Source: Gimesia sp. (GTDB lineage Bacteria > Planctomycetota > Planctomycetia > Planctomycetales > Planctomycetaceae). Taken from it: a DNA stretch of 64,000 nt. Of this stretch, positions 33,071-52,814 are shown piece after piece; the first letter of the stretch is position 1; each line of letters starts with the position of its first letter. The position numbers and the translations under genes are program-made. The stretch is from the NCBI RefSeq assembly GCF_040219335.1, contig NZ_JAVJSQ010000025.1, positions 62,001 to 126,000 of the forward strand, in the 5' to 3' direction. The notes beneath the pieces are model-generated. The model did no database searches. It saw only the letters and a list, made by a program, of their open reading frames with translations, and was not told where the DNA came from.

Positions 33071-33538
33071 CTATTTCCGCAAGTTCGCCGAGTACAGTGC
33101 ATCGACTTTACTCAGATAGGCCTCGGGATCAGCGGTGATCTTTTTGGTGCAGGGGGGGCAGCAAACATAAACTATCCGTCCATCCACAATGGTCCATTTC
33201 GGTTTTTGTGGCAGCTGCTTTTTCATCACCGGACATTTGCCTTGCGCTTTGGCATAGTTGGCGTGAATGGTCGACCAGTGCTGCGGGTTAATCTTGCTGT
33301 TTAAACAGCCTTTGCAACACAGATAGACCGACTCTTTGCCGACTTTGACTTTGATCGGCTTCCCGTGATCACCCAGCTTCTGTCCTGAGACGGGGCAGAT
33401 CTGCTGCGCTGCTATGCGTAACTGATCGCGCTGGTTCCCTTCTGCTTGTGGTTGCTGCGCTTCCACTAACTGTTGCACACCCAATCCGGTAATAGTAACC
33501 AGCGACAATGCCAGGATCATTTTGAACGATTTCATCAT
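33071..33538 (-). CDS. Exported protein with two tandem CPV/CCxxC metal-binding modules
   Basis: 155 residues. A signal peptide (cleavage after VEA, ~27) is followed by two copies of one module: CPVSGQKLG...VYLCCKGC (Cys48, 74, 75, 78) and CPVMKK...VYVCCPPC (Cys102, 126, 127, 130). The module resembles TRASH/YHS domains, which bind soft metals through cysteines. It starts 35 bases after the CusA stop on the same strand, so it is probably in the cusBA transcript. Likely a periplasmic copper or silver carrier feeding the pump; that is inference from motif and position. Confidence 0.82.
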   Translation of the reverse strand: MMKSFKMILALSLVTITGLGVQQLVEAQQPQAEGNQRDQLRIAAQQICPVSGQKLGDHGKPIKVKVGKESVYLCCKGCLNSKINPQHWSTIHANYAKAQGKCPVMKKQLPQKPKWTIVDGRIVYVCCPPCTKKITADPEAYLSKVDALYSANLRK

Positions 33539-33572
33539 ATTTCTCCTTCTAAAAAAGTCGTTCTGATCCCGC

Positions 33573-36500: not shown

Positions 36501-37094
36501 ATGATAGCGTAGCTCGTCGGGGTCGACTTCGACCTGGTACTGTTTGACGTAGCCGCCGATCGAGGCGACCTCGGCAACACCATCCACGGACTGCAGAGCG
36601 TACTTGATGAAGAAGTCCTGCTTTGAGCGCAGTTCCGCCAGGTCCATGCCGGCCGGCGGTTCGAGCACATAGTAATAGATCTGGCCCAGGGCAGTGGCAT
36701 CGGGGGCGAGTGTCGGGACCACGCCTTCCGGCAGCGAGCCTGTGACGGTCGTGAGCTGTTCGACCACGCGGGAGCGGGCCCAGTAGAAGTCGACGTCATC
36801 GTCAAACGTGACCTGCACGAAACTGAAGCCAAACATGCTTTTGCCGCGGACACTGCGGGAGCCCGGCACTGCCTGCAGCGCGATCGAGAGCGGATAGGTA
36901 ATCTGGTCTTCCACATCCTTGGGAGAGCGTCCCGTCCACTCGGCCAGCACGATCACCTGGTTCTCGCCCACATTGGGGATGGCATCAATGGGAACTTTCT
37001 GTGCCGAATACCAGCCCCAGCCGATCAGGCCGACCGACAGCAGGACGATCAGGAGTCGCTGACGAAGACAGAAATCGAGGATACTGCGGATCAT
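33573..37094 (-). CDS. cusA: CusA-type heavy-metal RND efflux pump
   Basis: 1173 residues; inner membrane proton-driven pump of the HME-RND family. The order of N-terminal helix, periplasmic porter loops and two sets of membrane helices is intact. The TM4 proton-relay segment reads AIAIGTMVDMGIIILEN. The three methionines that bind Cu(I)/Ag(I) in E. coli CusA (573, 623, 672) align by eye with Met668 (FYMPSL), Met718 (AAMVETY) and Met768 (RVVMLQSG), with nearly equal spacing. It is ~125 residues longer than E. coli CusA; two additional hydrophobic segments lie at ~505-598. The ATG overlaps the stop of cusB (ATGA). Monovalent copper/silver export is the best reading. Confidence 0.96.
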   Translation of the reverse strand: MIRSILDFCLRQRLLIVLLSVGLIGWGWYSAQKVPIDAIPNVGENQVIVLAEWTGRSPKDVEDQITYPLSIALQAVPGSRSVRGKSMFGFSFVQVTFDDDVDFYWARSRVVEQLTTVTGSLPEGVVPTLAPDATALGQIYYYVLEPPAGMDLAELRSKQDFFIKYALQSVDGVAEVASIGGYVKQYQVEVDPDELRYHNIPLSQVIDSVKAANIDVGAKTVETSGMEFIVRGKGFIGADKTEQETIEQINNTVITTSKGVPIRVSDVAQVQTGPAFRRGALDLNGQEAVGGVVVMRYGENPRKVIERVQAKIASLESELGGIKIQGIYDRSLLIDETVSTLTEALIQETIITVAVMVLFLLHIRASIIIAITLPMAVLMSFIAMKTFGVDANIMSLAGIAIAIGTMVDMGIIILENIYGSLAEWEASGTPGGPQQRLTVIRDSAAEVIPAVITAVSTTIISFLPVFFLTGRDHRLFTPLAWTKSFALISSLIVAVVILPMLCRIFLRSTQLSRWGQLASGAAVGCLTAALCWFVWGDYIAEGSLLTLAAATLFAAVAGFLLGWWVTSEKIRSMEENPASRFVRFLYAGRLKMALKHKLLMLSFPAMIVVLGAGAWVGLPTVLKPVEKVVSLLGADLNQVPGYVDAKHVFTGLKSDDWIALDEGSWFYMPSLYPAASFSQAMEILQAQDTLIKGIPEVEHVLGKIGRVESALDPAPAAMVETYVMLKPRDKWREGMTARKIWDEINSVATLPGVTPASPLQPIEGRVVMLQSGIKASMAIRVYGDDLEGLSKASLAVAERLKQNRYVNAGTVNPDIVMGKPYYEFEVDREEAARYGMTTMMVNQIVSAGLGGLDVTTTVEGRERYPIQVRFERSVRKDLKDLRKVSVVTHGGDIVPLERLADVTTTWGPGAINSEDARLVAHVAFSPSGASGDLETVEQVMTDLRTAREDGSLTFPRGNFELQAVGSFQNQIEANQRLMWIIPTVLLVNLLIIYLGFQDFAISAIVFSGIPVAFAGGMIAVAWMGVDMNTAVWVGFIALFGIAVDDGVVMATYIQQTLKRQPVKDIADLREAIYTAGLKRIRPCVMTTLTTIFALLPVLMSHGRGADVARAMALPVLGGMLVEPFTTFIVPAIYCAYLEFKMNAGLSSQALNHELPQTGSQNSKFDPALSGPAS

Positions 37095-39037
37095 TGACGG
37101 ACCTCCTGTTTCGCTCCGGTAGCCGTCAGGGGCAGTCTGGGGGCCTGTGGAAGCGGTTCAGGCTCCATCTCTAGCGGCACGTCCAGCGGGGGCAGGCTGT
37201 CATCCGGCTCAATCATCAGAGGGGATTCAATTGACGGCAGTTCCATGGCGGGCAAGTCTTGATCCTGTTGGCCCGAACTGTCAGCCGTTTTGAGTTTTTC
37301 CAGGTACTGCTTCGGGTGTTCCAGCAGACTTTCCCGACAGCCTTCACAGCAGATGAAAACCATTTCTCCATTGAGGTCGACTTTGGCAGGGGCCCCCATC
37401 GATCCCAGAGACATCATCGTGACAGGACAGATCCGTTGCTGTTCTGCCCGACTGCGATCCGCAGGAGGGAGCTTCGAAAGAGCCGCCAGAATCGTTTCTG
37501 ATTTTTCCTGATCCGGCAGAGGTTCCGCACGGGTCGGATCGATGAGCGACGGATTGCCTGCCAGCTGCATCTGTGAATCGATCAGGAAGTTGCCGCGGGT
37601 CGCGACCTGCTCTCCCTGCTTGACTCCTTTCAGGATCACGATCTGGTCGCCGCAGGTCGGTCCCAGAACCACATTACGTATTTCAAAGCGTCCCGGTTCG
37701 GTTTCGACATAGAGCACACTATGCTGTCCCGCCATCAGGACGGCATCGCGAGGTACCGTGAGTGCTTCACTTTCCGCGATTGACTGTGAGACATAACCGT
37801 ATTGTGAGGTGGGAACCAGGGCTTGCCCGGTGACAGGACACTTGCCCGGTTCTTTGGCGATGACGTGCGGGTGCCGGGGGCAGATCCAGCAGTCTGCCAG
37901 TTCGGGATCATAAACGCCTCCGGATTTTCCCTTACTTCCCGCAGGAACGGAGATGGTCGCACGGGCGTAATCTCCCACACGCAGCGCTCCCTCCGGGTTA
38001 GGCATTACGATTCGTACGCCGACCGTGCGTGTCTGGGGATCAACGTGAGGATCGATAAAGGCCACACGGCCGGTAAAGGTCTGATCGGGCTGCGACTGAA
38101 CGGTCGCTTCAACTTTCTGTCCATAGCGAATCGTGGCGGCATCTTCCGGGAACAGTTCGAGCATCAACCATAATTGAGAAAGATCAGCCAACTGATAGAT
38201 GACCTGTCCCTCCTTGACATACTGTCCTTCTACCGCAGGCTTTTTGATGACCGTCCCACTGATGGGGGCACATAAATGCATCCGGCTGTTGGCCTTGCCC
38301 GTTTTTTCGATTTCTTCGATCTGGGGCAGCGTCATACCCAGTTCGACTAATCTCTGTTTCGAACTCTGATAGAGGTTTTCGTTGGTCTGGATCACCCGTT
38401 TCAGTGTGGCAGAGCGACTGTTCTCTAAGGCCTTTTTGGCCAGCAGCAGTTCGACCTGACTCGAATAAAGCAGGGGGGAGTAAAGATAAGCCAGTCGGTC
38501 TCCCTGTTTGACTTCGACACCCGTAAAATCGGCATAGAGCCGTTCGATGCGACCGTCCACATATGCAGACAGGGTCTTGAGGTTCCCTTCGTCATAGCTT
38601 AATTCGCCCACGGCCTGGATCGTGTGGCTCAGGGGCATCGATTCGACCGAGGTGGTCTGAATGTTGGCAATCCTGCGGGCCGCCGGATCGATACGGACCG
38701 CATTAGGATCTGATTTCGATCCATCCGAGGTGGCCGGCACCAGTTCCATGGCACAGACCGGGCACCGTCCCGGCTCGGTCTGAGGGGGCGTGCACATCAT
38801 CGGGCAGATATATTTCACGACTTTGCTGAGGGGCGATTCATGACTGTGCCCACCTCCGCCGGCTGTGATGAAGCCCATGCGCTGCGCCACGCCCAGACCG
38901 GCGATCAGTACAGCCCCGCACAGCAGAAACAGGAACGGCTGCACCAGCAGTCGAATCCACCAGCGGCGGACATTCTGTTTTTTCTGTGAAGACGCCTCAT
39001 CCCGGGCGCAGATCTCACTTTGATTCAAATTATTCAT
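37091..39037 (-). CDS. cusB: CusB-type periplasmic adaptor with three metal-binding modules
   Basis: 648 residues. One N-terminal membrane anchor (~28-50) is followed by a heavy-metal-binding module (YICPMMCTPP...GRCPVCAMELVP, ~73-100), the adaptor body with lipoyl and coiled-coil halves, a second module (CWICPRHPHV...GKCPVTGQALVP, ~377-406), and a C-terminal CPV/CCxxC module (ICPVTMMSLG...VFICCEGC, ~534-580) before an acidic, proline-rich tail. E. coli CusB is ~400 residues and has none of these three extra modules. It links CusA to the outer membrane duct and probably delivers metal to the pump. Confidence 0.95.
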   Translation of the reverse strand: MNNLNQSEICARDEASSQKKQNVRRWWIRLLVQPFLFLLCGAVLIAGLGVAQRMGFITAGGGGHSHESPLSKVVKYICPMMCTPPQTEPGRCPVCAMELVPATSDGSKSDPNAVRIDPAARRIANIQTTSVESMPLSHTIQAVGELSYDEGNLKTLSAYVDGRIERLYADFTGVEVKQGDRLAYLYSPLLYSSQVELLLAKKALENSRSATLKRVIQTNENLYQSSKQRLVELGMTLPQIEEIEKTGKANSRMHLCAPISGTVIKKPAVEGQYVKEGQVIYQLADLSQLWLMLELFPEDAATIRYGQKVEATVQSQPDQTFTGRVAFIDPHVDPQTRTVGVRIVMPNPEGALRVGDYARATISVPAGSKGKSGGVYDPELADCWICPRHPHVIAKEPGKCPVTGQALVPTSQYGYVSQSIAESEALTVPRDAVLMAGQHSVLYVETEPGRFEIRNVVLGPTCGDQIVILKGVKQGEQVATRGNFLIDSQMQLAGNPSLIDPTRAEPLPDQEKSETILAALSKLPPADRSRAEQQRICPVTMMSLGSMGAPAKVDLNGEMVFICCEGCRESLLEHPKQYLEKLKTADSSGQQDQDLPAMELPSIESPLMIEPDDSLPPLDVPLEMEPEPLPQAPRLPLTATGAKQEVRQ

Positions 39038-39207
39038 AACAACCTCTACGGAATCGTGTCAGACAACGGTTATTTTCAGGGAAAATAGGGTCTGGCTGTT
39101 TTACTTGAATCAGGAAATGAGACACGAAGTGGGAGTCAAAACCCGGGATGTCTCAAAACATCCATCAAACAGGGAAAACAGCGCGCACTGAGACAGCAGA
39201 GGTGAGA

Positions 39208-39627
39208 TCAGATCAACCAGCTACAGAGGACTTCCTGCTGGTGAAGCGTGGGCTGAAATGAGGATTGAGGTGTGTCGAACGCCATGCCTGACTGCAACTG
39301 CTGTGTGCAGACGACATAGGTGATCACCTGAGTGGCTGCCAGCCGGGATACTTCGCGTTCCTGGGAAGAGCGGTTTTCATCGGGGGTAACAGGCAGCTCC
39401 TGTTCGACCGAACATCGGCACCGCAGTTGATGGGAAGTTTCAGAACAGCAGCTCTGATCTGTATCCATCGAAGGCGAGCAGCAGCAGGCTTCAGTTGAAC
39501 AACGATGACCGGCCTGTGCGAATGGCACAACTCCCCCGAGGAGGGTGGCTGCCACGAGCATCCAGGAGATCAAAGATTGTGTTAACGTCTGAAACATTGC
39601 TACACCGGTCAAAAAGGAAAGTCTCAT
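39208..39627 (-). CDS. Exported cysteine-rich protein (paralog 1)
   Basis: 139 residues from the first ATG; a second ATG at 39597 gives a tidier signal peptide and may be the real start. After the signal (cleavage near AQA) comes a dense cysteine cluster (HRCSTEACCCSPS, SCCSE, RCRCS), then a low-complexity middle and a C terminus ending VLCSWLI. There are about ten cysteines in the mature chain. No enzyme family fits; it resembles an exported metallothionein-like metal buffer. It lies 170 bases upstream of cusB on the same strand. Confidence 0.65.
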   Translation of the reverse strand: MRLSFLTGVAMFQTLTQSLISWMLVAATLLGGVVPFAQAGHRCSTEACCCSPSMDTDQSCCSETSHQLRCRCSVEQELPVTPDENRSSQEREVSRLAATQVITYVVCTQQLQSGMAFDTPQSSFQPTLHQQEVLCSWLI

Positions 39628-39826
39628 TTGTTTTAAGGCCCAGACTTACAACAGTCAAGTCTGAATTCTGTTCACGCTGATGGGGTGTTTCTCACCTGCT
39701 GCCAGTCTGCTGAAGAAGGAGACCCGATTTCCTGAGGGATGTGGTCAGAATCAGAAATCTGAACACGGTCAATATATCGGGAAATCAGCAGACTCTGCAG
39801 CGCGTAAAGATGCTGTCTGAGCAGCT

Positions 39827-40360
39827 TTATAGCGTGAAACGACAAAGAGATACGCAGCGGTCGAGGGCTGCCTGTGGTGCAGCATTAAAGTGCGTTTTTC
39901 CTGCTGTTTGTGACAGATTGTCGATCGTCACCACGAAAACGACTTCCGGGAAATCGACCAGCTTTTCTGCAGGACTATTTTCGACGGGAGCAGGAGCAAG
40001 AGGGCTGACAGGTTGGTGATGAGAACCACAATGACAGTCGGTACCACAAGAGCAGGTGCCAGATTCGACAGCCTGAATTTCGCTGGAACAGGTAATGTCA
40101 GAGGGCCGTGATTCGAGAGTCGGAGCCGATATCGATGGGAGCTCAGCATCGTCACTGCAATGGCAGACAGCGGCCCCCGTGCAACAGCACCGAGTCGTCT
40201 GACTGTCTGTCGATGATCCCTGCTCGGAACAGCACTCAGTGTCAGTTTGAGACTGACCAGGGCAGCAGTGACAGGATGCGGCAGGCAGACCTTGCAGTGG
40301 AACTGTCAAAGCAGCCAGGCAAACCATGATTCGAGTTGTGATTGTTTTTGACATCCACAT
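39827..40360 (-). CDS. Exported cysteine-rich protein (paralog 2)
   Basis: 177 residues. After a signal peptide (cleavage near PAA) the chain has ~17 cysteines in clusters (SCHCCPG, ECCSE, RCCCTGAAVCHC, GTCSCGTDCHCGSHH), a proline-rich linker, and a conserved-looking C-terminal part ending SLCRFTL. Cluster layout and the LCxxxL-type end match its neighbour, so the two are probably paralogs. Soft-metal binding outside the cytoplasm is the likely role; the C-terminal part is hydrophobic-patterned and may form a small fold. Confidence 0.68.
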   Translation of the reverse strand: MWMSKTITTRIMVCLAALTVPLQGLPAASCHCCPGQSQTDTECCSEQGSSTDSQTTRCCCTGAAVCHCSDDAELPSISAPTLESRPSDITCSSEIQAVESGTCSCGTDCHCGSHHQPVSPLAPAPVENSPAEKLVDFPEVVFVVTIDNLSQTAGKTHFNAAPQAALDRCVSLCRFTL

Positions 40361-42799: not shown

Positions 42800-43481
42800 T
42801 ATTCATCCTTTTAATCAACTCGTTTTCTGGGCCACTGAAGCGAGCTGTTCAATCTGGCTGCCTCATCCCTGGTTTCCAGTGAAAGGCTGTTAATATTCAA
42901 AGCGGGCTCAAAACCGTTGTCAGTCGTAATAGACCTTGAGCACGTACTGCTGCACCATCCGCTGAATATTGAAATACGACGCATTCAGTGAAATCGAGTG
43001 GGCCATGATTTTCAGCCAGGCATCTCTCTGCTTCATCAGAAGTCTAACTGATCGGTTTTTCGCAAGGACAAATGCAACTGCCCGACACTGAAGCTCCCGC
43101 ATGGGGGGGGCGGAGCAGGGTGCTGCAACTCGAACCTGAACGAGAGTGACAGGAGACCGTTATTGCTGTTTTTTTGAATCACCCGTTTCAGGAAGCAATG
43201 AGCAAACCTGATAAGCTCTTCTCTTCATTTAGATGCCTGAATCATCGAATTCTTCACGAAAAATAAGAATTATATCATACTGCTGATGTTCTAAAGGTCT
43301 TGCACCAACACTCAGGTTGAGGGGATTGCACCAGCGGGCTTGTTCCATTATGACTCTGGATATTCTGCTGCCATGGACTCGTTTTCCAACTACTGTATTT
43401 TTACCGTCACATTCTCTATTCTGTAGCTTTACTGAAAAAAAACGAATTATTATTGAGTTTCTGTGAAGAAATCCTGCAACC
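42800..43481. other. Gene-poor region between divergent genes
   Basis: About 680 bases. Besides the phosphorylase relic it holds an AT-rich stretch (43230-43480) that should contain the promoter for the sigma factor operon. No further gene seen. Confidence 0.45.
42920..43036 (-). pseudogene. C-terminal relic of an alpha-glucan phosphorylase
   Basis: 39 codons reading MKQRDAWLKIMAHSISLNA then SYFNIQRMVQQYVLKVYYD and a stop. This matches the conserved end of glucan phosphorylases (W..IM...I.LN...FN.QRMV.QY...Y). The upstream ~800 codons with the pyridoxal-phosphate lysine are gone. Its place directly before glgX on the same strand fits the usual gene order. Confidence 0.7.
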
Positions 43482-44057
43482 GTGTCATCTAAACGAGCAA
43501 CAACCCGACAAAACGCTGCTTTGCAGGCTCTGGTCGATGCCGAAACCATCGAAGGGTGCCAGGCAGGCGAGAGTCATGCGCAAGAGCGTCTTTACGGGTT
43601 ATGCCATGCCCGGATTTATCACGTGATGGTTCGGATGGTTGGCTTGCAGGATGCTGCTGATTTAACTCAGCAGATATTTCTGCAGGCATTTCGTAAGATC
43701 GATCAATATGCGGGCCAATCGAAATTTGAAACCTGGTTTTATCGACTGGCAATCAATGAGGCTCTTCAGCACCTGCGGAAAAAACGCCGCCGGTCGCACC
43801 TGTCATTTACACAAGAACCCATGAGTCAGAATCAGCCAGAGCAGAATCGCAGAGAAATGAAAGAACTCCTGGAAGAGGCTCTGTCTCGACTGGATCCGGA
43901 GGTGCTTTCCGTTTTCATACTGCATGAAGTGGAAAAACTGACATATCGTGAAATTGCTGAGGTAAAGAATATCGCAGAAGGAACTGTAGGCTCGCGAATG
44001 AATCGTGCTCGGCGGGAGTTGAAACAGCACCTGACTGATCTGGGGTGGGAGCCATAA
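43482..44057 (+). CDS. ECF-type RNA polymerase sigma factor
   Basis: 191 residues from a GTG start. Region 2 (residues ~30-100) contains ADLTQQIFLQAFRKIDQY and FETWFYRLAINEALQHLRKK; region 4 (~130-185) contains LSVFILHEVEKLTYREIAEV and GTVGSRMNRARRELK. No region 3, as in ECF factors. One base separates its stop from the anti-sigma start, and the CusB/CusA genes follow in the same direction. It probably directs polymerase to this operon and related metal genes when released by the anti-sigma factor. Confidence 0.94.
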   Translation: MSSKRATTRQNAALQALVDAETIEGCQAGESHAQERLYGLCHARIYHVMVRMVGLQDAADLTQQIFLQAFRKIDQYAGQSKFETWFYRLAINEALQHLRKKRRRSHLSFTQEPMSQNQPEQNRREMKELLEEALSRLDPEVLSVFILHEVEKLTYREIAEVKNIAEGTVGSRMNRARRELKQHLTDLGWEP

Positions 44058-44058
44058 C

Positions 44059-44928
44059 ATGAATTGTCCCGAAGTCCAGGAATTACTTTCCGCTTATTAT
44101 GATGGCGAACTGGATGAAGCCCGGTCATCCGCGGTCGCGGCGCATATTGAAACGTGCGCTGAGTGCAAAGCAGAACTGGATGTATTTGCAAAGCTGACAC
44201 AGTTGACGGAATCCCTCGATGCCCCAGCCCCCTCTGATCAGATCTGGAATCAAATACAGCAACATCTGCATGATTCGCCCACCATGGATCAAAGAGGAAA
44301 TGACAATCATCACGCGACTGGACGTCGCAATTTCTTCAAATGGGTGTGGTTGACTTTAGCGGCAGTTTTTCTGGTAGCCGTCGGTACTGGCTGGTGGTTC
44401 TTTCAGTCAGGGCGAGAAGTCCAGGAGCATCAACATAACCATCAACAGTTTACCGCTGAGTTTGGACAATATCTCGATCTATTTACCCAAGATCCCAGTG
44501 CCGCCCAGCAATTCCTGCTGGCGAAGTATCAAAATCAGCCCTTACAGGAGGGGCAGATTCGAGAGAAAACTGGTTATAAGCCATTCATTAGCAAAGGGTT
44601 GCCTGCAGATTATAGACTTGAATCCGCCCATCTGTTTAAGATGCCCTGTTGTACCTGCGTGCAAGCCGTTTGTAAAAGAAACGATGGTAGCACGCTGGCA
44701 ATTTTTGAGCACGATAAGGAAGAGACCAGCGAATGGTTCGGAGATCGGCCCAATGTTTGTATTGCCTGTAAGGACAGAAAGTGTTGTCTGGTGGAATTCG
44801 ATCAGCAGATTGCTGCCAGCTGGAAACGGGGTTCTCATTACATCACATTGATTGGTGTTAGAGATTTGGATGAAGTGGATCGATTCGTGACCTGGTCGAA
44901 TAGACATCAGCCGACAGCCACGAATTGA
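44059..44928 (+). CDS. Membrane anti-sigma factor with cysteine-rich outer domain
   Basis: 289 residues. The N-terminal zinc-finger (ZAS) motif is intact: Cys3, His29, Cys33 and Cys36 (HIETCAEC). One membrane helix lies at ~92-112. The C-terminal, presumably periplasmic, domain has a histidine patch just after the membrane and two cysteine clusters: Cys197, 198, 200 and 205 (CCTCVQAVC) and Cys234, 237, 242 and 243 (CIACKDRKCC). The family holds an ECF factor inactive at the membrane. The outer cysteines suggest direct binding of copper, silver or a similar metal as the signal, analogous in logic to Cnr-type systems; that is inference. Confidence 0.88.
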   Translation: MNCPEVQELLSAYYDGELDEARSSAVAAHIETCAECKAELDVFAKLTQLTESLDAPAPSDQIWNQIQQHLHDSPTMDQRGNDNHHATGRRNFFKWVWLTLAAVFLVAVGTGWWFFQSGREVQEHQHNHQQFTAEFGQYLDLFTQDPSAAQQFLLAKYQNQPLQEGQIREKTGYKPFISKGLPADYRLESAHLFKMPCCTCVQAVCKRNDGSTLAIFEHDKEETSEWFGDRPNVCIACKDRKCCLVEFDQQIAASWKRGSHYITLIGVRDLDEVDRFVTWSNRHQPTATN

Positions 44929-44966
44929 GTTTTCAGGAAAGTTACGATTTCCGATAGAGGCCGAAA

Positions 44967-47369
44967 ATGAAATCACCTTTTCAATCTGACCGGTTACGTC
45001 ACTTCTACAAACGAAATGCCGGGAAAATCTGGGTTTTGCAAACGGCCTTTTTGATATTGATCGGCTTCAGTATTGCCTGGTCAATGAAGGCCCCCTCTTC
45101 GGAGTCGGATCAACCTCCGAAGGAAACCGCGCATGCAGGGCATGCAAAAGCACCGCAGATCTGGACCTGCTCCATGCATCCCCAGATTCGCCGAAACGCA
45201 CCTGGCAAATGCCCGATTTGTGGTATGGAACTGGTTCCTGTGGGGCCGACGCCGGAGGGAATGCGTACGATTCAGATCAGTGAGACTGCCCGTAATCTGC
45301 TGCGAATTGAAACCACGCCTGTGGAGCGGCGTGAAGTCACAGCAAAGATTCGCATGGTGGGGAAAGTCGAGTACGACGAAACAAAGCTGGCACATATCAC
45401 GGCCTGGGTTTCAGGACGTCTGGATCGACTGTACGTCGATTTTACCGGCGTCGAGGTTAAAAAAGGCGAACATCTGGTCTATATCTACAGTGAAGAGTTG
45501 TATGCTGCCCAGGAAGAGTTGATTCAGGCACTGAAATACAAAAAAGAAGGTCCTGCGAAAACGACCAGGCTGGTGCAACCGATCGATCTCGTTGCATCTG
45601 CCCGTGAAAAGCTCAGACTGCTGGGACTGACTGCAGAGCAGATTCAGGAAATAGAAAAGCGGGGCACTCCCTCAGAACATCTCACGATTTACTCACCGAT
45701 CGGCGGCATCGTGATTAAAAAACTGAAAGAAGAAGGGGACCGCGTCCGCACCGGGGATCGAATTTATACTGTAGCCGATCTCAATCTGGTTTGGGTCAAG
45801 TTAGATGCCTACGAATCTGACCTGATCTGGCTGCATTATGGACAAAAAGTGAAATTCAAAACCGAAGCCTATCCGGGGGAGACATTCACGGGGCGGATTG
45901 CCTTCATTGATCCTGTCCTGAATGAGTCAACACGCACGGTCAAAGTCAGAGTGAATGTGCCAAATAAAGATGGCAAGCTGAAACCGGAAATGTTTGTCAG
46001 CGCCGTGGTGGAATCACAGGTGGCAACGGGAGGCCGTGTCCTCGATGAAGAACTGATGGGGAAATGGATCAGTCCCATGCATCCGGAAATTATTAAGGAT
46101 CATCCCGGGGTCTGTGATATCTGTGGAATGCCACTGGTTCGCGCTGAGACGCTGGGAGACGTTATCACACCAGAGGAAAAAAAAGACAAACCATTGGTGA
46201 TTCCTGTATCAGCAGCTCTGGTTACGGGGACAAGAGCGATTGTTTATGTCGAAGTTCCTACAGCCAGCAAGCCGACCTATGAAGGGCGGGAAATCGTTCT
46301 GGGCCCGCGTGCTGGAAATTATTACATTGTCAGGAATGGTTTGAGAGAAGGTGAACTTGTCGTCACGAATGGCAACTTCCAGTTGGATAGTGCTCTGCAG
46401 ATCTCTGCTAAACCGTCCATGATGACACCCGAAGGCGGCGGTGGAGGAGGACATCACCACGGCGGCAGCAGTTCCAGCAACAAAAAGATGGAACAGAAAC
46501 AGTCGCAGTCACAGACAATGTCTCTGCCACCCCAGTTTCAGCAACAACTCAGCAGAGTACTTCAAGCCTCCGATGCCGTTACTGCGGCCATTGAAAAATC
46601 GGAACTGACTCAAGTGCGTGCGGCATTCGAGCAACTGGGACAGGCCCTGCAGCAGACAGATACCAAACTACTGACGGGACATGCCGCTATGCTGTGGGGG
46701 GAATTTTCCATGTTGCTGTCAAATGACGCGGTTGAAGGCGGCGATGTTCTATCGCTGGAAGAGGCAGATCAGGTCTATGCCAAACTGAAACGGCATATAC
46801 AACGTGTGCGTGCCCAGTTTGGAATGAATCATACAAATCACGAAAACAGCGCTAAGGACATTGAAGTACCTGCTGAATTTCAGACTGAATTAGCACCGTT
46901 ACTGAGCTTTTATTTTACCCTCTCAGATTTTCTGGCATCCGATCAGGAACAGAAAGCACTTGGGGCTGGTTCGAAGTTGAAGCAGATACTCGGTTCGATT
47001 CAGAGTTCCGCTTTGCAGGGAGATGCTCTGAGATACTGGAATCAGGAAGCTGCCAATCTCGCCGGGATTGCCGATCAGTTTAAGCTGGCAAAGGACCTGA
47101 AGTCGCTGCGCAAGTCCTTCGCATTGCTTTCCCAGGAAATCCTGGTGCTGGTGAAGACTTTTGATCTTGCCCGCCAGCCGCCCCTGTATGAACTGCATTG
47201 TCCGATGGCCTTTCAGGGGCGGGGAGCGATCTGGTTGCAGCGCGATACTGAGGTCAAAAATCCATATTTTGGGACGTCGATGCTAAAGTGTGCGGATCGA
47301 GTGGTCCCGATCGCTAGAGAGCAACTTCAGGAAAAACCAATCGAACACAAGGGACATGACCATCAGTAA
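44967..47369 (+). CDS. cusB: CusB-type adaptor, second system, with long C-terminal metal region
   Basis: 800 residues, about twice E. coli CusB. A membrane anchor (~22-42) is followed by a heavy-metal-binding module (WTCSMHPQIRRNAPG, CPICGMELVP, ~66-93), the adaptor body, and a second module (WISPMHPEIIKDHPG, CDICGMPLV, ~365-395) whose first cysteine is Ser. A glycine/histidine patch (GGGGGGHHHGGSSSS, ~490) leads to a ~300-residue helical C-terminal region ending in a DUF3347-like segment (HCPMAFQGRGAIWLQ, ~744; MLKCADRV). It lies 38 bases after the anti-sigma gene and 44 before cusA. It should join the second CusA to an outer membrane duct and bind metal at several sites. Confidence 0.94.
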   Translation: MKSPFQSDRLRHFYKRNAGKIWVLQTAFLILIGFSIAWSMKAPSSESDQPPKETAHAGHAKAPQIWTCSMHPQIRRNAPGKCPICGMELVPVGPTPEGMRTIQISETARNLLRIETTPVERREVTAKIRMVGKVEYDETKLAHITAWVSGRLDRLYVDFTGVEVKKGEHLVYIYSEELYAAQEELIQALKYKKEGPAKTTRLVQPIDLVASAREKLRLLGLTAEQIQEIEKRGTPSEHLTIYSPIGGIVIKKLKEEGDRVRTGDRIYTVADLNLVWVKLDAYESDLIWLHYGQKVKFKTEAYPGETFTGRIAFIDPVLNESTRTVKVRVNVPNKDGKLKPEMFVSAVVESQVATGGRVLDEELMGKWISPMHPEIIKDHPGVCDICGMPLVRAETLGDVITPEEKKDKPLVIPVSAALVTGTRAIVYVEVPTASKPTYEGREIVLGPRAGNYYIVRNGLREGELVVTNGNFQLDSALQISAKPSMMTPEGGGGGGHHHGGSSSSNKKMEQKQSQSQTMSLPPQFQQQLSRVLQASDAVTAAIEKSELTQVRAAFEQLGQALQQTDTKLLTGHAAMLWGEFSMLLSNDAVEGGDVLSLEEADQVYAKLKRHIQRVRAQFGMNHTNHENSAKDIEVPAEFQTELAPLLSFYFTLSDFLASDQEQKALGAGSKLKQILGSIQSSALQGDALRYWNQEAANLAGIADQFKLAKDLKSLRKSFALLSQEILVLVKTFDLARQPPLYELHCPMAFQGRGAIWLQRDTEVKNPYFGTSMLKCADRVVPIAREQLQEKPIEHKGHDHQ

Positions 47370-47413
47370 ATATTGTTGGCAAACATGGTCTCTCCGTTTC
47401 GACAGGAAAACAG

Positions 47414-50400
47414 ATGGTGACTGAATCCGAAAATGTAAACTTGAACCAGGATGAACCGAAATCGATTCTCGAAAAGGTCATCTGGTTCAGTCTGAACAAC
47501 AAGCTGGTAGTCAGCTTACTGGTCATCGCGATTCTTGGCTGGGGCGCGTTGGTTGCCCCCTTCGACTGGGATCTGGGGGGACTGCCGAGAAGTCCTGTCC
47601 CCGTGGATGCCATCCCTGATATTGGTGAGAACCAGCAGATTGTTTTCAGTCAATGGATGGGCAGGTCGCCCCAGGATGTGGAAGACCAGATTGGATATCC
47701 CCTCACGGTGGCACTGCTCGGGATTCCCGAAGTCAAAACCATCCGCAGTTACTCGATGTTTGGTTTTTCAACGATCTACGTGATTTTTAATGAGAAGGCG
47801 GAATTCTACTGGTCTCGCTCCCGCGTGCTGGAAAAACTGAACAGTTTGCCTCCGGATACTCTCCCGGAGGGCGTTCAACCGACACTGGGGCCTGATGCCA
47901 CCGCCCTGGGACAGATCTTCTGGTATACGCTCGAAGGCCATGATCCGGATGGCAATGTCGTTGGAGGGTGGGATCTGCGCGAGCTGCGTACGGCACAGGA
48001 CTGGTATGTGCGTTACGCTCTGGCTTCGGCGGAAGGGATCAGCGAAGTTGCTTCGATCGGTGGTTTCGTTCAGGAATACCAGATCGACGTTGACCCCGAT
48101 GCAATGCGGGCAAACAAGGTGAGCCTGGAACAGGTTTTTAATGCCGTACGCATGTCAAATGTGGACGTGGGGGCGCGTACTATTGAATTAAACAAGGCAG
48201 AATATGTCATCCGCGGTCTGGGATTTGTCGAAAATATTGGCGACCTTGAGAAGACGGTCCTGAAGGTCAGCGACAACGTACCCATCACTGTCAAGGATGT
48301 CGCTACCGTCTCACTGGGGCCCGCTCTCAGACGTGGCGCGCTGGACAAAGAGGGTGCAGAAGCCGTAGGGGGAGTTTGCGTCGTTCGGTATGGATACAAT
48401 CCGCTTGAAGCAATCAAAAATGTGAAAGAAAAAGTTGCGGAAGTATCTGTGGGGCTCCCGAGCAAGGTTTTAATTGACTTCAAGAAGATAACTCCTGACA
48501 AGATTACAGAGTATGCCCGACAGCATCACTTTGATGCCTATCAAAACGATCAGTTGAATGATAAAGCCTGGGTTCAGCATTTAAGGTCCCTGGAACGCAG
48601 TGAGTGGCCAGAGTGGGCTACCATCAGCCAGATTACGGTCGTTCCGTTTTATGACCGTACAGGGTTAATTTATGAAACGCTGGGGACCCTGAACACCGCA
48701 CTCACTGAGGAAATCCTGGTCACGATCATCGTCATTCTGATCAGTGTGATGCATTTGCGGAGTTCAGTTTTAATCAGTGCCCTGTTACCACTGGCTGTGC
48801 TCATGTGCTTTATTGCCATGAAAACACTGGGGGTCGATGCAAATATTGTTGCCCTGTCCGGCATCGCCATCGCCATAGGTACAATGGTCGATATGGGGAT
48901 CATTCTCTGTGAAAATATCCTGAAACAACTGGATGAAGCTGGTCCGGATGCTGACCGTCTGAAAGTGATTTACAATGCTACCCGCGAAGTCGCCAGTGCT
49001 GTCCTCACTGCTGTGTCTACTACCGTTATCAGCTTTCTGCCCGTATTTACCATGATTGGGGCTGAAGGTAAGCTATTTAAGCCGCTCGCATTTACGAAAA
49101 CCTTTGCCTTGATTTCCTCCGTCATTGTCGCACTGACGATTATTCCTCCCGCTGCCCATATTCTGTTTAGAGGAAAAGTTCACTCAACCTCAATCAAGCG
49201 TTTTCTTCCCTGGAGCCTGGTTATTCTTGGCATGCTGATTGTTCTGCTGGCTATCCTGAATATGCTCCCTATGGAAAATACTGGTTTCATCGGACGTTTC
49301 TCACTTCCCTGGTGGGTTGGAGCAATCGTACTGGGGCTGGGGGTGTACAATTTAATGGAACACCGAATTCCCGAACGCCTGCGCCAATTTGGGCCCCTGG
49401 CCGCAAACTACCTGGCCGTACTGGTGGTCGGCTTGATTCTAACCGAACACTGGCTCCCCCTGGGACCAGATAAAGGTTTTAGTCAAAATCTGATGTTCGT
49501 GACGCTGTTAATTGGTGGACTGCTGGCCTTCTTTCAATTCTTCCAGCGCGTCTTATATGAACCGCTGCTCCGCTGGTGTCTGAAAAACAAACTGCTCTTT
49601 CTTTCCATTCCAACACTGATCCTGTTTCTGGGCGGTTGTGCCTGGTTGGGCTTTGACCGTGTGTTCGGATTCGTTCCTGAACCAGTTCGTAACACAGCTC
49701 CGTGGAAAAGTATGGCAGCGACATTTCCGGGATTAGGTAAAGAGTTTATGCCACCATTAGATGAAGGCTCTTTCCTGTATATGCCAACAACGATGCCTCA
49801 TGCCTCTATTGGCGAATCAATGGATGTACTGCAGCTGCAGGATAAACTGTTGATTTCTATCCCCGAAGTGGAATCGGTTGTGGGGAAGGTCGGTCGAGTA
49901 GACAGTCCTCTCGATCCCGCTCCGATTTCCATGATTGAAACCATCATTACATACAAGACTGAGTATAAATCGGATCAACAGGGGCATCGTATCAAGTATC
50001 GATATGATCCAGTCAAAAATGAATTTGTCCGAGATAAAAATGGAAAGCTGATCGAAGATTCTGGTGGGCGTCCTTATCGTCAGTGGCGAGAACATATAAA
50101 GTCACCGAATGATATCTGGAAGGAAATCACCGACGCTGCCAGTTTGCCTGGGGCAACATCAGCTCCTAAACTGCAACCCATTGCCGCGCGGATTGTCATG
50201 CTGCAAAGTGGTATGCGTGCCCCGATGGGACTCAAGATCAAAGGTCCCGATTTACAAACGATTGAACGCGTGGCTCTGGATATTGAACGACTGCTCAAAC
50301 AGGTTCCTTCAGTAGAAGAGTCTGCTGTGATTGCTGATCGTATTGTCGGAAAACCATATCTGGAGATCGACATCGATCGCGATGCGATTAAGAGATATGG

Positions 50401-51430
50401 ATTACATATCCGCTCTGTTCAGGATGTGATTGAGGTCGCTATAGGCGGTAGGAGGATTACGACAACAGTCGAAGGCCGTGAACGCTACCCGGTCCGTGTG
50501 CGTTATGCCCGTGAATTGCGGGATGAAATTGAAACATTGGGCCGTATTCTGGTTCCCACACCCACTGGCGCGCAGATCCCACTCGAGCAACTCGCCGAAA
50601 TACGCTATACCCGTGGACCTCAGGTGATTAAAAGCGAAGACACTTTCCTTTTGGGCTATGTCTTGTTCGACATGAAACCGGGGAATGCCGAAGTCGATGT
50701 TGTGGAAGACTGCCAGCGATTCCTGAAACAAAAAATACAAACCGGAGAATTGGTTCTCCCGCCAGGTGTGAGTTACAGCTTTGCCGGCAGTTATGAGAAT
50801 CAGATCCGCTCACAGAAGACTTTGATGATAGTACTGCCCTTGGCGCTGTTCGTGATTTTCCTGATCTTATACTTCCAGTTCAGTTCGGTCATCACGACCT
50901 CGCTGGTCTTCAGTGGGATTTTGATCGCCTGGTCGGGGGGCTTCATCATGCTCTGGCTATATGGACAACCCTGGTTTTTGGATTTTCAACTGTTCGATAC
51001 CAGTATGCGCTCTCTGTTCCAGGTGCATCAAATCAATCTGAGCGTTGCTGTCTGGGTCGGATTCCTGGCCCTGTTCGGGATTGCCACTGATGATGGCGTC
51101 GTCATTACCACTTACCTCGACCAGAGTTTTCGTAAACGCAGGATCGGTTCTGCCAGGGAAGCGCGAGATGCCACTCTGGCTGCAGGCTTAAGGCGTGCCA
51201 GGCCCTGCTTAATGACCACGGCCACAACCATTCTGGCTCTGATTCCTGTCCTGACATCCACGGGGCGGGGCTCTGACATCATGGTCCCCATGGCGATCCC
51301 CAGTTTCGGGGGCATGCTCATCGAAATCATGACCATGCTGGTCGTACCGGTGCTTTACTGCAGTGTTATGGAGTGGAAGTTGAAATGGGGAATCGAAGAT
51401 CCCCGTTTTGAGGAGAATGCTCAATCTTAA
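47414..51430 (+). CDS. cusA: CusA-type heavy-metal RND pump, second system, enlarged
   Basis: 1338 residues, ~290 more than E. coli CusA. Core features are intact: the TM4 segment AIAIGTMVDMGIILCEN and the three methionines aligning with the E. coli Cu(I)/Ag(I) site, Met790 (FLYMPTT), Met840 (ISMIETI) and Met929 (RIVMLQSG). Two insertions stand out: ~130 residues with four or five hydrophobic segments (~588-718) before the second half, and ~40 charged residues (~845-890) in the porter loop between Met840 and Met929. The TM4 segment ends LCEN instead of LEN-type hydrophobics. Expression with the sigma/anti-sigma pair is implied by the gene order. Confidence 0.95.
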   Translation: MVTESENVNLNQDEPKSILEKVIWFSLNNKLVVSLLVIAILGWGALVAPFDWDLGGLPRSPVPVDAIPDIGENQQIVFSQWMGRSPQDVEDQIGYPLTVALLGIPEVKTIRSYSMFGFSTIYVIFNEKAEFYWSRSRVLEKLNSLPPDTLPEGVQPTLGPDATALGQIFWYTLEGHDPDGNVVGGWDLRELRTAQDWYVRYALASAEGISEVASIGGFVQEYQIDVDPDAMRANKVSLEQVFNAVRMSNVDVGARTIELNKAEYVIRGLGFVENIGDLEKTVLKVSDNVPITVKDVATVSLGPALRRGALDKEGAEAVGGVCVVRYGYNPLEAIKNVKEKVAEVSVGLPSKVLIDFKKITPDKITEYARQHHFDAYQNDQLNDKAWVQHLRSLERSEWPEWATISQITVVPFYDRTGLIYETLGTLNTALTEEILVTIIVILISVMHLRSSVLISALLPLAVLMCFIAMKTLGVDANIVALSGIAIAIGTMVDMGIILCENILKQLDEAGPDADRLKVIYNATREVASAVLTAVSTTVISFLPVFTMIGAEGKLFKPLAFTKTFALISSVIVALTIIPPAAHILFRGKVHSTSIKRFLPWSLVILGMLIVLLAILNMLPMENTGFIGRFSLPWWVGAIVLGLGVYNLMEHRIPERLRQFGPLAANYLAVLVVGLILTEHWLPLGPDKGFSQNLMFVTLLIGGLLAFFQFFQRVLYEPLLRWCLKNKLLFLSIPTLILFLGGCAWLGFDRVFGFVPEPVRNTAPWKSMAATFPGLGKEFMPPLDEGSFLYMPTTMPHASIGESMDVLQLQDKLLISIPEVESVVGKVGRVDSPLDPAPISMIETIITYKTEYKSDQQGHRIKYRYDPVKNEFVRDKNGKLIEDSGGRPYRQWREHIKSPNDIWKEITDAASLPGATSAPKLQPIAARIVMLQSGMRAPMGLKIKGPDLQTIERVALDIERLLKQVPSVEESAVIADRIVGKPYLEIDIDRDAIKRYGLHIRSVQDVIEVAIGGRRITTTVEGRERYPVRVRYARELRDEIETLGRILVPTPTGAQIPLEQLAEIRYTRGPQVIKSEDTFLLGYVLFDMKPGNAEVDVVEDCQRFLKQKIQTGELVLPPGVSYSFAGSYENQIRSQKTLMIVLPLALFVIFLILYFQFSSVITTSLVFSGILIAWSGGFIMLWLYGQPWFLDFQLFDTSMRSLFQVHQINLSVAVWVGFLALFGIATDDGVVITTYLDQSFRKRRIGSAREARDATLAAGLRRARPCLMTTATTILALIPVLTSTGRGSDIMVPMAIPSFGGMLIEIMTMLVVPVLYCSVMEWKLKWGIEDPRFEENAQS

Positions 51431-51595: not shown

Positions 51596-52393
51596 CTACC
51601 ACAGCATGAACAGGGCCATCAGGATCATCACACTGTTTTCAATGATCGTGACCGCGGACATGGGCAGGTTAAACACGGTTCCCAGACAGGCGCATTGAAT
51701 TGCCTGACGTTTACGTACGGCTTGCAGCACGCCAATCAGTCCGACTCCCATCACAAGAGCTGTGGCAGCGTTTATCAGAGCCGGCGCCCAGCCGAAAATA
51801 AATGCGATCCCCAGTGAAAATTCAAGAAACGGATAGAGTAACGCGTACAGACGCGACCGTTTTGCCACAATATCATAGGTCGCAAAGGCATCGGCGAACT
51901 TGCTGACATCAAGCAGCTTGAAGAAGGCAAATCCCAGGAAAAAACAGCCCATAAAGAAACGCAGGAAGTTTCCCCAGACCCAGCCCGATGCTTGTGCTGA
52001 GGCTAAGATCGCGGCTGCACCACATACATAAAATACAACCAGCAGCAGCGGCTTATAGGTACTGAGTTTGAAATGATGTTTCTCCTCTGGAGGCTGAATC
52101 TGCTCCAGCCTGGGAGTCGCCTTTAAGTCCTTCTGTTTTAGAACAGGCTTTGCCTCAAACCCGGCTCCCTCTACAACCGCGATAAGTTTCTCGACAGGAT
52201 CTTCCCCCTGCATTTTGGCTGTGACAGTTTTTAATTCACTGGAAAGGTCTGCTTCCCACTCCTGTATCTCAATAGTCTGATCCAGCACAGGTCGTAATTT
52301 ACTTAAACAGGATTGGCACTTCATATTTGTCGATACGGTCACCTCTTGAAGGTGATCTTCCTGCTTCACCATTGTCATCTTTTTGTTCTCCAT
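51596..52393 (-). CDS. HMA-type metal-binding domain fused to MauE/DoxX-like membrane domain
   Basis: 265 residues. An N-terminal HMA-like ferredoxin fold (~15-80) has the metal motif MKCQSC. A linker leads to four hydrophobic helices (~113-262) with the CACLG motif near the end, typical of MauE/DoxX-like proteins. GGAG lies nine bases before an internal ATG (52378), so translation may begin there (MTMVKQ) and not at 52393. It begins 16 bases after the merR stop and is probably the regulator's main target. By analogy with mer-type uptake proteins it could move metal or thiol redox equivalents across the inner membrane; that is inference. Confidence 0.85.
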   Translation of the reverse strand: MENKKMTMVKQEDHLQEVTVSTNMKCQSCLSKLRPVLDQTIEIQEWEADLSSELKTVTAKMQGEDPVEKLIAVVEGAGFEAKPVLKQKDLKATPRLEQIQPPEEKHHFKLSTYKPLLLVVFYVCGAAAILASAQASGWVWGNFLRFFMGCFFLGFAFFKLLDVSKFADAFATYDIVAKRSRLYALLYPFLEFSLGIAFIFGWAPALINAATALVMGVGLIGVLQAVRKRQAIQCACLGTVFNLPMSAVTIIENSVMILMALFMLW

Positions 52394-52409
52394 ATTTCAA
52401 ATAACAGGT

Positions 52410-52814
52410 TTATTTGTTCGGGGATGTAATTGATTCGATGATCGGACAGTCAGACAGAGTACCTCGTCCACTGCACTTTTCATGCAGAGTCTCAAGGGTT
52501 GACGCCAAGCGTTGCAAATCATCAATTTTCTGATGGATTTCAACCAGTTTCTGTCCAGCCAGTTGCTTGACCTCTCTCTTGGATGAATGAGGACTGTCCG
52601 CGAGATGCAGTAACTGTCCGACTTCAGCGAGAGTAAACCCGAGTTCCTGGGCACGTTTGATAAACTTGATCCTGTCAATCACATCCGGCGGATATTCCCG
52701 GAATGAGGACAGCGCGACGGGCTGTTTGACCAACCCCTTCCGTTCATAAAACCGCACTGTCTCTACACCAACCCCTGCTGCCTGGGCGACTCGTCCGATT
52801 GTCAACTTACTCAT
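52410..52814 (-). CDS. MerR-family metal-responsive regulator
   Basis: 134 residues. The winged-helix start (LTIGRVAQAAGVGVETVRFY) and coupling helix are standard. The C-terminal metal loop has Cys114 and Cys123 (CSGRGTLSDC) with an eight-residue spacing, as in MerR and ZntR. The position of the third ligand Cys in divalent-metal sensors is Ser77 here (LADSPHSS), the residue found in Cu(I)/Ag(I)/Au(I) sensors such as CueR. AGGAGG lies seven bases before the ATG. It is co-directional with the HMA-MauE gene and likely activates its own promoter on metal binding. Confidence 0.93.
   Translation of the reverse strand: MSKLTIGRVAQAAGVGVETVRFYERKGLVKQPVALSSFREYPPDVIDRIKFIKRAQELGFTLAEVGQLLHLADSPHSSKREVKQLAGQKLVEIHQKIDDLQRLASTLETLHEKCSGRGTLSDCPIIESITSPNK

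Follow-up and report, generated by a model that had tools for sequence, protein, structure and literature searches.

What switches on a copper-type efflux pump of the resistance-nodulation-division (RND) class in a planctomycete? The question is raised by four genes of Gimesia sp. in a 64,000-nt stretch of contig NZ_JAVJSQ010000025.1, hereafter the window, from a genome of 7.93 Mb. An extracytoplasmic function (ECF) sigma factor, a membrane anti-sigma factor, a CusB-type adaptor and a CusA/CzcA-type pump are encoded head to tail on the plus strand at 43482-51430, separated by gaps of 1, 38 and 44 nt. Their identities were confirmed with Pfam and NCBIfam models (Table 1), and the closely spaced sigma/anti-sigma pair that a preliminary description had placed at the head of cusBA is borne out; the four genes are probably co-transcribed. 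We give a probability of about 70% to the reading that the pair is a self-contained copper-responsive switch whose sensor, predicted to bind the metal, is fused to the anti-sigma factor. We prefer a metal sensor in the anti-sigma factor because the pair heads cusBA, because four of the eight cysteines of its outer domain are nearly invariant in the core of the family, and because copper genes stand behind the same promoter in relatives. To our knowledge, the signal is known for few planctomycete ECF sigma factors.

A conserved cysteine site in the anti-sigma factor

The HxxxCxxC motif of the N-terminal zf-HC2 domain is present in 58/64 members of the anti-sigma family. As far as PMC7406223 describes it, Hx3Cx2C is the signature that defines the class I (zinc-binding) anti-sigma domain; the window protein has this signature by sequence and is predicted to bind and inhibit the adjoining sigma factor, in which only Sigma70 regions 2 and 4 were matched. 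Because there is a single helix and the zf-HC2 end should lie inside, the C-terminal part is expected outside the membrane. The cysteines 197, 198, 200, 205, 234, 237, 242 and 243 are all C-terminal of the hydrophobic segment, and histidines 124, 126 and 128 follow just past the helix, in agreement with the earlier claim of an intact zinc finger plus eight clustered cysteines and histidines beyond it. Residues 128-283 match no Pfam model.

A search with the whole protein found matches in 148 of 294 genomes of the phylum; among the matches listed, nearly all cover the zinc-finger part, and five places, distributed over four genomes, match at full length. When the C-terminal domain alone was used as a profile, 54/397 Planctomycetia genomes matched. 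The 36-member profile, run against 392 genomes drawn from the phylum, matched 6, five in Planctomycetia and one, partially, outside (E 8e-5), so that among the genomes sampled the sensor domain appears almost confined to this class. A tblastn search of 72,556 plasmids at 1e-5 for plasmid spread gave no match.

The matches in these genomes made up 68 rows for 66 places. Of the 66, 64 members including the window were used, the short matches G646:C152 and G425:C75 being left out; 56 remain after rows more than 90% identical are dropped. We defined a core of 53 by setting aside four cysteine-less members of one genus, the fragment L124 and six divergent members (L118-L123). The 60 cysteine-bearing members include L116 (reading frame cut to 175 aa, MPCCTC), L124 (MPCCTC), L122 and L123. 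The standout block in the alignment of all 64 is MPCCxC(x4)C ... FEH ... WFG ... C. C197, C198 and C200 are each present in 53/53 core members and C237 in 52/53, and all four in 45/45 of the core at no more than 90% identity; E217 is found in 53 and H218 in 52. Across all 64 members the counts are 56 (C197), 60 (C198), 60 (C200) and 52 (C237). Conservation in orthologs, one of the two conditions named earlier for the proposal, is found for these four cysteines. The other cysteines of the core are less constant (C205 in 42, C242 in 32, C243 in 16, C234 in 3), and the eight cysteines, described earlier as clustered, divide into four that form a conserved site, two that are optional (C205, C242) and two that are rare (C234, C243).

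Among the six divergent members, C197 is present in 2, C198 in 6, and C200 and C205 in 4 each. Four of them (L118 7772-8719, L119 7800-8759, L120 7877-8806 and L121 7752-8690, all on the minus strand) have an inserted or rearranged metallothionein-like run of cysteines at the CCxC site; L122 and L123 have cysteines in another, different arrangement.

The cysteine-less members (L034, L069, L071 and L072, genus g10) keep E217, H218 and W255 in 4/4, and C200 alone survives in two. They also keep the sigma gene, with an exact promoter copy in two of the four. Since promoter and sigma factor are kept, the switch may answer another signal there, and since the anti-sigma domain is kept, the cysteines seem not to be needed to hold the sigma factor.

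The outer domain is predicted to have an RseB-like fold

AlphaFold2 was run on residues 125-289 plus two relatives. The model of the C-terminal domain (predicted local distance difference test, pLDDT, 85.2; predicted template modelling score, pTM, 0.84) places the conserved cysteines on two hairpins (model residues 73, 74, 76, 81 and 113, 118). In a Foldseek search of the PDB the top match was the Thermotoga protein 1vr8 (E 0.003), and RseB chains ranked 2-6 and 8 (E 0.004-0.035, probability 1.00, template modelling score ~0.4, 10-12% identity); a further RseB chain, 3m4w_D, had a probability of only 0.14.

Sequence homology to RseB was also considered and rejected: hhalign of the 36-member profile against E. 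coli RseB gave a probability of 0.4%. PF17188, the RseB/MucB C-terminal domain, matched neither the window protein nor any of the 36/64 member domains scanned, and 0/30 relative genomes at E <= 0.001. The best Pfam hit to those 36 domains was DUF4245 (0.0031, in one member only), and hmmsearch of PDB sequences returned only complement factor H (E 0.12). Since no Foldseek match reached E 0.001 and the sequence methods were null, we describe the sensor domain as a predicted mixed-beta domain, RseB-like in fold and not a proven RseB homologue.

This fold, together with an RseP homologue found in the genome, lends some weight to an account in which the cysteines have a structural role (zinc or disulfides) or act as a metal buffer, while the switch in fact responds to envelope damage through RseA/RseB-like proteolysis. 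We regard that account as improbable. The cysteine-less members, which keep E217, H218 and W255, are the ones without labelled metal neighbours, and the retention of these residues indicates that the cluster seems not to be needed for the fold.

Metal genes surround the anti-sigma gene in relatives

Neighbouring genes were labelled with window proteins and motifs in fetched DNA, mostly 8 kb on each side and less on short contigs; the CusA label means a phmmer match at E < 1e-8. A labelled metal gene lies near 54/60 cysteine-bearing members vs 0/4 cysteine-less ones, and a CusA or CusB match near 47/60. The window genome has 8 CusA/CzcA genes over cut-off, from which the chance of meeting one within 8 kb of a random genome point is ~1.6% (7.93 Mb). 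The seven other labelled loci have a multicopper oxidase (L092, L122), a CPC ATPase (L104), a TRASH/YHS-like lipoprotein with a TolC-type protein (L033) or the lipoprotein alone (L073, L074, L094). No labelled gene was found in the fetched DNA of six cysteine-bearing members, L043, L086 and L108 (contigs below 5.5 kb) and L091, L096 and L097; in the last two, inspection by eye shows Met-rich secreted proteins in the vicinity, accompanied in L097 by a TolC-like protein.

These neighbourhoods bear on whether the sigma factor merely adjoins cusBA as a general envelope-stress factor, with the pump controlled otherwise. Anti-sigma factors of the zf-HC2 type are common in the phylum (the 148/294 genomes above, mostly N-terminal matches), as that explanation would have it. 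If the association were of this kind, it would have to accommodate both the metal genes near 54/60 cysteine-bearing members and a promoter standing immediately ahead of CusB, as seen in L088 and L093, and we consider it very unlikely.

A conserved ECF-type promoter heads the sigma gene

Upstream of the sigma gene, many relatives share the motif GTGAAGAA-N14/15-CATCYAA, where CATCYAA stands for CATC(T/C)AA. The window has two pattern matches, both at this locus, against 0.03 expected; two or more occurred in 1/100 shuffles. A position weight matrix (PWM) built without the window sites and the L032 copy scored them 30.7 and 28.7, with the next site in the window at 9.1 and the best in the reversed window at 4.1. 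The motif is probably the promoter of this sigma factor. A shared ECF promoter had been suggested for 40360, 54816 and 56350 as well; pattern match and whole-window PWM scan gave only 43229-43255 and 43465-43492, and the suggestion is not supported.

The promoter also bears on the start of the sigma gene. The open reading frame and domains at 43482-44057 are as first described. The start proposed there is not: GTG 43482 is flanked by the -35 and -10 elements, so it is not the start on this promoter's transcript, and the start must lie after 43492. The next in-frame ATG/GTG/TTG codon is TTG 43521 (178 aa), with no clear ribosome site. For the second copy in this genus, a start at the next such codon would give a sigma factor of only 152 aa, and a rarer start codon or another transcript is therefore to be considered there.

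For motif counts we chose 37 genomes, 19 of the 54 with the anti-sigma family and 18 of the 343 without. There were 80 matches in the 19 (reversed 7) and 17 in the 18 (reversed 6), the two groups having different taxonomic make-up. For the genus of the window alone, the counts were 23 in 4 genomes with the family and 10 in 9 without; within its own family of genomes, 26 matches fell in 5 genomes with the anti-sigma family and 0 in the reversed control.

In relatives, genes behind the promoter point to copper

The first labelled gene behind 77 motif sites in the 64 loci was sigma in 27, a TRASH/YHS-like lipoprotein in 10, anti-sigma in 7, CusB in 2 and another or unlabelled gene in 31. The lipoproteins were named by eye, and in the two that were checked nothing exceeded a Pfam cut-off. 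A CopZ-like protein followed by a P-ATPase stands behind the promoter in L101, L102 and L106 (near copies) and in L114; the copper-translocating model TIGR01511 is over cut-off for the ATPases of L101 and L114, and the CPC, YN and MxxSS motifs are present in three complete copies. Csp1-like proteins stand behind it in L108 and L110 (TIGR04401 at 2e-11 and 5e-12, below cut-off), and among PDB copper-storage proteins the L110 protein matched RkCSP3 best (1.4e-7; Csp1 2.6e-5). Judged by eye, the promoter also heads genes for small, secreted Cys-rich proteins and for a family of helical secreted proteins. Further sites in G238, a genome of the same genus as the window, head a heavy-metal ATPase with HMBD and YHS, two such secreted proteins and, by eye, a dehydrogenase-like gene. 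Of 20 further motif sites inspected, 6 lie inside long reading frames, and some are probably chance.

The Cu(I)/Ag(I) path of E. coli CusA includes three methionines, M573, M623 and M672. The corresponding positions of the window pump are all methionine (M790, M840 and M929), as they are in the second RND pump of the window. With a CusA/CzcA pump over the family cut-off and a CusB-type adaptor, the operon has the make-up of a CusBA system of the heavy-metal efflux RND class and is predicted to export copper. The case for copper as the metal is built on what follows the promoter in other genomes, together with the three methionine positions; Ag(I) and Cu(I) are indistinguishable by sequence.

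A switch that answers a different metal, soft or heavy (Ag, Hg, Cd, Zn, Co/Ni), instead of copper would agree with the MerR-family regulator and HMA-MauE protein that adjoin the operon, and CusA/CzcA pumps as a family carry several metals. It is harder to square with the promoter's standing, in relatives, before genes for Csp1-like and CopZ-like proteins and copper-type ATPases, and with the copper methionines in CusA, and we hold it to be unlikely. The same genes bear on a further reading, namely that the cysteines form disulfides under oxidation or thiol stress and that copper genes are induced within that response. Redox switches are known among anti-sigma factors, the N-terminus of this one has matches below cut-off to ChrR- and RsrA-family models, and copper itself oxidises thiols. 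Against this, the genes identified behind the promoter include copper chaperone, export and storage-like functions (part of them is annotated, and redox genes are possible among the rest), and a CCxC motif, with its neighbouring cysteines, is typical of soft-metal sites. A thiol-stress switch seems to us a minor possibility.

Proposed mechanism and its weak points

In the copper-switch reading, the zf-HC2 domain would hold the sigma factor at the membrane, and the outer RseB-like domain would carry a putative thiolate site formed by CCxC(x4)C plus C237. Filling of this site by Cu(I), perhaps also Ag(I), would cause the anti-sigma factor to free the sigma factor, either by conformational change or, as with RseA, by cleavage ending with an RseP-type protease, a homologue of which the genome encodes. 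The freed sigma factor would transcribe its own gene, anti-sigma, cusB and cusA from the GTGAAGAA-type promoter; the pump would lower periplasmic copper, and fresh anti-sigma would shut the switch.

We see about even odds for a broader proposition. It would make this a new periplasmic sensor domain, almost confined to Planctomycetia among the genomes sampled. An RseB-like fold, joined to an anti-sigma factor of the zinc type, would bear the CCxC(x4)C/C237 copper site, combining RseA, RseB and a metal sensor in one protein with its own copper regulon under a dedicated promoter. One genus would have lost the site but retained, to serve another signal, the sigma factor, the residues of the fold and the promoter, the last as an exact copy in two of four members.

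Several observations weigh against the copper switch. At the usual spacing the motif occurs twice in the genome, only at this operon, and the identity of the metal thus comes from relatives. A looser spacing gives four genome matches (reversed control 1), and of the two extra sites the first falls inside a coding frame, while the other is 370 nt ahead of a reading frame that looks ribosomal by eye. G458 and G667, which have the anti-sigma family, have no exact motif match; G024 has three, none at its sigma gene; and the exact motif lies within 1.6 kb upstream of the anti-sigma gene in only 34/64 members. C237 is present in 0/6 divergent members. No sigma gene, as sought with phmmer, stands beside the anti-sigma gene in 15/64, and in three of these (L079, L082, L118) it is elsewhere in the fetched stretch. 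The CopZ and Csp1 matches are below NCBIfam cut-offs. The CusA label catches any RND pump, and for that reason the copper claim is not based on this label alone. Finally, the loss of metal neighbours in the cysteine-less members is suggestive only, because all four come from one genus and may record one event.

If the copper switch is real, it would be another route to direct periplasmic metal sensing for an RND copper pump without a histidine kinase, and it would show that metal sensing can evolve in a domain of the RseB type. The family offers a candidate signal (copper), a putative binding site, a promoter and a regulon, with natural site-less members as controls.

Features of the locus and its surroundings

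Table 1. Sequence features of the sigma/anti-sigma-cusBA locus (window positions)
Feature	Positions	Strand	Evidence
Second, divergent promoter copy	43229-43255	-	pattern match; PWM 30.7
ECF-type promoter heading sigma gene, GAAGAA-N15-CATCTAA after GT	43465-43492	+	pattern match; PWM 28.7
ECF sigma factor, open reading frame	43482-44057	+	Sigma70_r2 and r4_2
Membrane anti-sigma factor, 289 aa	44059-44928	+	zf-HC2 match, hydropathy
zf-HC2 domain, residues 3-36, HxxxCxxC, presumably cytoplasmic	44065-44166	+	E 1.3e-10
Likely transmembrane segment, residues ~92-114	44332-44400	+	hydropathy only
C-terminal sensor domain, probably periplasmic, RseB C-terminal-like fold	44440-44907	+	AlphaFold2 model, Foldseek
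Cysteine group 1: C197, C198, C200, C205; MPCCxCxxxxC	44647-44673	+	beta-hairpin of model, alignment
Cysteine group 2: C234, C237, C242, C243	44758-44787	+	alignment, model
CusB-type RND adaptor	44967-47369	+	HlyD_D23, two HMBD (heavy-metal-binding) stretches, DUF3347
CusA/CzcA-type RND pump	47414-51430	+	TIGR00914, over cut-off

What the divergent promoter faces is no more than a leftover piece of glgP (alpha-glucan phosphorylase, identified by eye), followed by glgX. Of glgP, at 42800-43230 on the minus strand, only the C-terminal end is left (QRDAWLKIMAHSISLNASYFN...); the gene is whole in the same-genus locus L032 (2356-4077). The other copy from this genus (L031, L068) has a gene for a small lipoprotein, labelled TRASH/YHS-like, behind its divergent promoter.

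Directly after cusA, at 51596-52814 (minus strand), is a MauE protein with a sub-threshold HMA domain, behind the MerR-family regulator, whose best NCBIfam model is MerR, below cut-off. A second cusBA pair lies in 33071-40360 on the minus strand (pump 33573-37094, adaptor 37091-39037) and has no copy of the ECF promoter. It is accompanied by a protein whose TRASH matches are sub-threshold (33071-33538) and by two proteins that are rich in cysteine and probably secreted (39208-39627 and 39827-40360), all on the minus strand.

Gene order varies among relatives. No sigma gene precedes the anti-sigma gene in L070, L075-L082 and L084; in L077-L080 the exact promoter directly precedes the anti-sigma gene. 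In L079 and L082 the sigma gene comes after cusA, and in the others of this group it was not found in the fetched DNA. In L098 the sigma gene (6842-7413, plus strand) is split over two frames (matches of 120 and 116 aa), by a frameshift or an assembly error.

Two secreted protein families recur behind the promoter. The helical one, with a DAGAKxRG-like start, HARDY and a CC near the end, is found in L085 (5853-6617), L097 (5948-6487), L098 (5841-6368), L067 (14151-14708) and L168, all on the minus strand; there was no Pfam match in three (L085, L097, L098) and no NCBIfam match in two (L085, L097). A His-rich secreted protein (HDHAGHNHAMPGM or similar) stands behind the same promoter in four related genomes (L170 949, L174 1227, L176 1084, L182 2622).

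Comparison with known systems

The pair is real, conserved and coherent; the sensor architecture is its new part, and the kinds of component are already known. Among the papers listed in a literature search we recognised none that describes the sensor domain, or the pair in planctomycetes, and an unnamed ECF group in the published classification may already contain it. The preliminary description set the scheme apart from the two-component control (CusRS) that is normal for copper RND systems. To call it without precedent would be an overstatement, since ECF control of a metal RND pump (CnrYXH), a cysteine-bearing anti-sigma factor (NrsF) and copper-responsive ECF factors (SigF and SigAb, with RpoQ assumed) have been published.

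CnrYXH of Cupriavidus metallidurans, as outlined in PMC7689651, likewise places an ECF sigma factor and a membrane anti-sigma factor over a heavy-metal RND pump with periplasmic sensing, and there sigma release from CnrX-CnrY proceeds by shape change. According to the same account, CnrX is a separate membrane sensor, a helical bundle with a methionine among its Co/Ni ligands. The window system instead has sensor and anti-sigma factor in one protein, with a cysteine cluster in a predicted mixed-beta domain, and between sigma, anti-sigma, cusB and cusA there is no room for a separate CnrX-like gene.

The SigF-NrsF pair of Caulobacter crescentus resembles the window pair in that NrsF has two conserved, probably periplasmic cysteines; the sigma factor is freed by Cr stress and in a double cysteine mutant, the regulon is induced by Cr, Cd and Cu, and a sigF mutant is copper-sensitive (in the accounts of PMC3511200 and PMC8224329). 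By these descriptions, which are the basis on which we set the two apart, NrsF has two cysteines and not a cluster, and no RND pump is among the SigF genes described. NrsF loses its sigma factor when both cysteines are changed, as PMC3511200 relates, whereas the cysteine-less members here keep the anti-sigma domain.

In Acinetobacter baumannii, SigAb-AabA-AabB is a copper-responsive ECF sigma factor with a two-protein, RseA/RseB-like anti-sigma system; as PMC12153292 presents it, the metal genes belong to the indirect regulon, and the anti-sigma factor and its periplasmic partner are separate proteins. RpoQ-RsqA of C. metallidurans is an ECF sigma factor with a predicted membrane anti-sigma factor beside the copper- and gold-induced gig genes, whose control by RpoQ is assumed by the authors; the gig operon as given in PMC10304878 contains no RND pump. 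RpoE-RseA-RseB of E. coli shares the membrane anti-sigma factor, and among named solved folds that of RseB, the periplasmic partner, comes closest to our model. There RseB is a separate protein, and the hhalign probability is the 0.4% reported above.

CorE and CorE2 of Myxococcus xanthus, too, are ECF sigma factors over copper genes with a cysteine-rich sensor. In the description of PMC10141476, which counts CorE and CusRS homologues in Planctomycetota, the CorE cysteines sit on the sigma factor's own C-terminal extension and no anti-sigma factor takes part. In the window sigma factor, by contrast, region 4 ends at residue 180/191 and the remaining tail has no cysteine; the cysteines are instead on the anti-sigma factor beside it.

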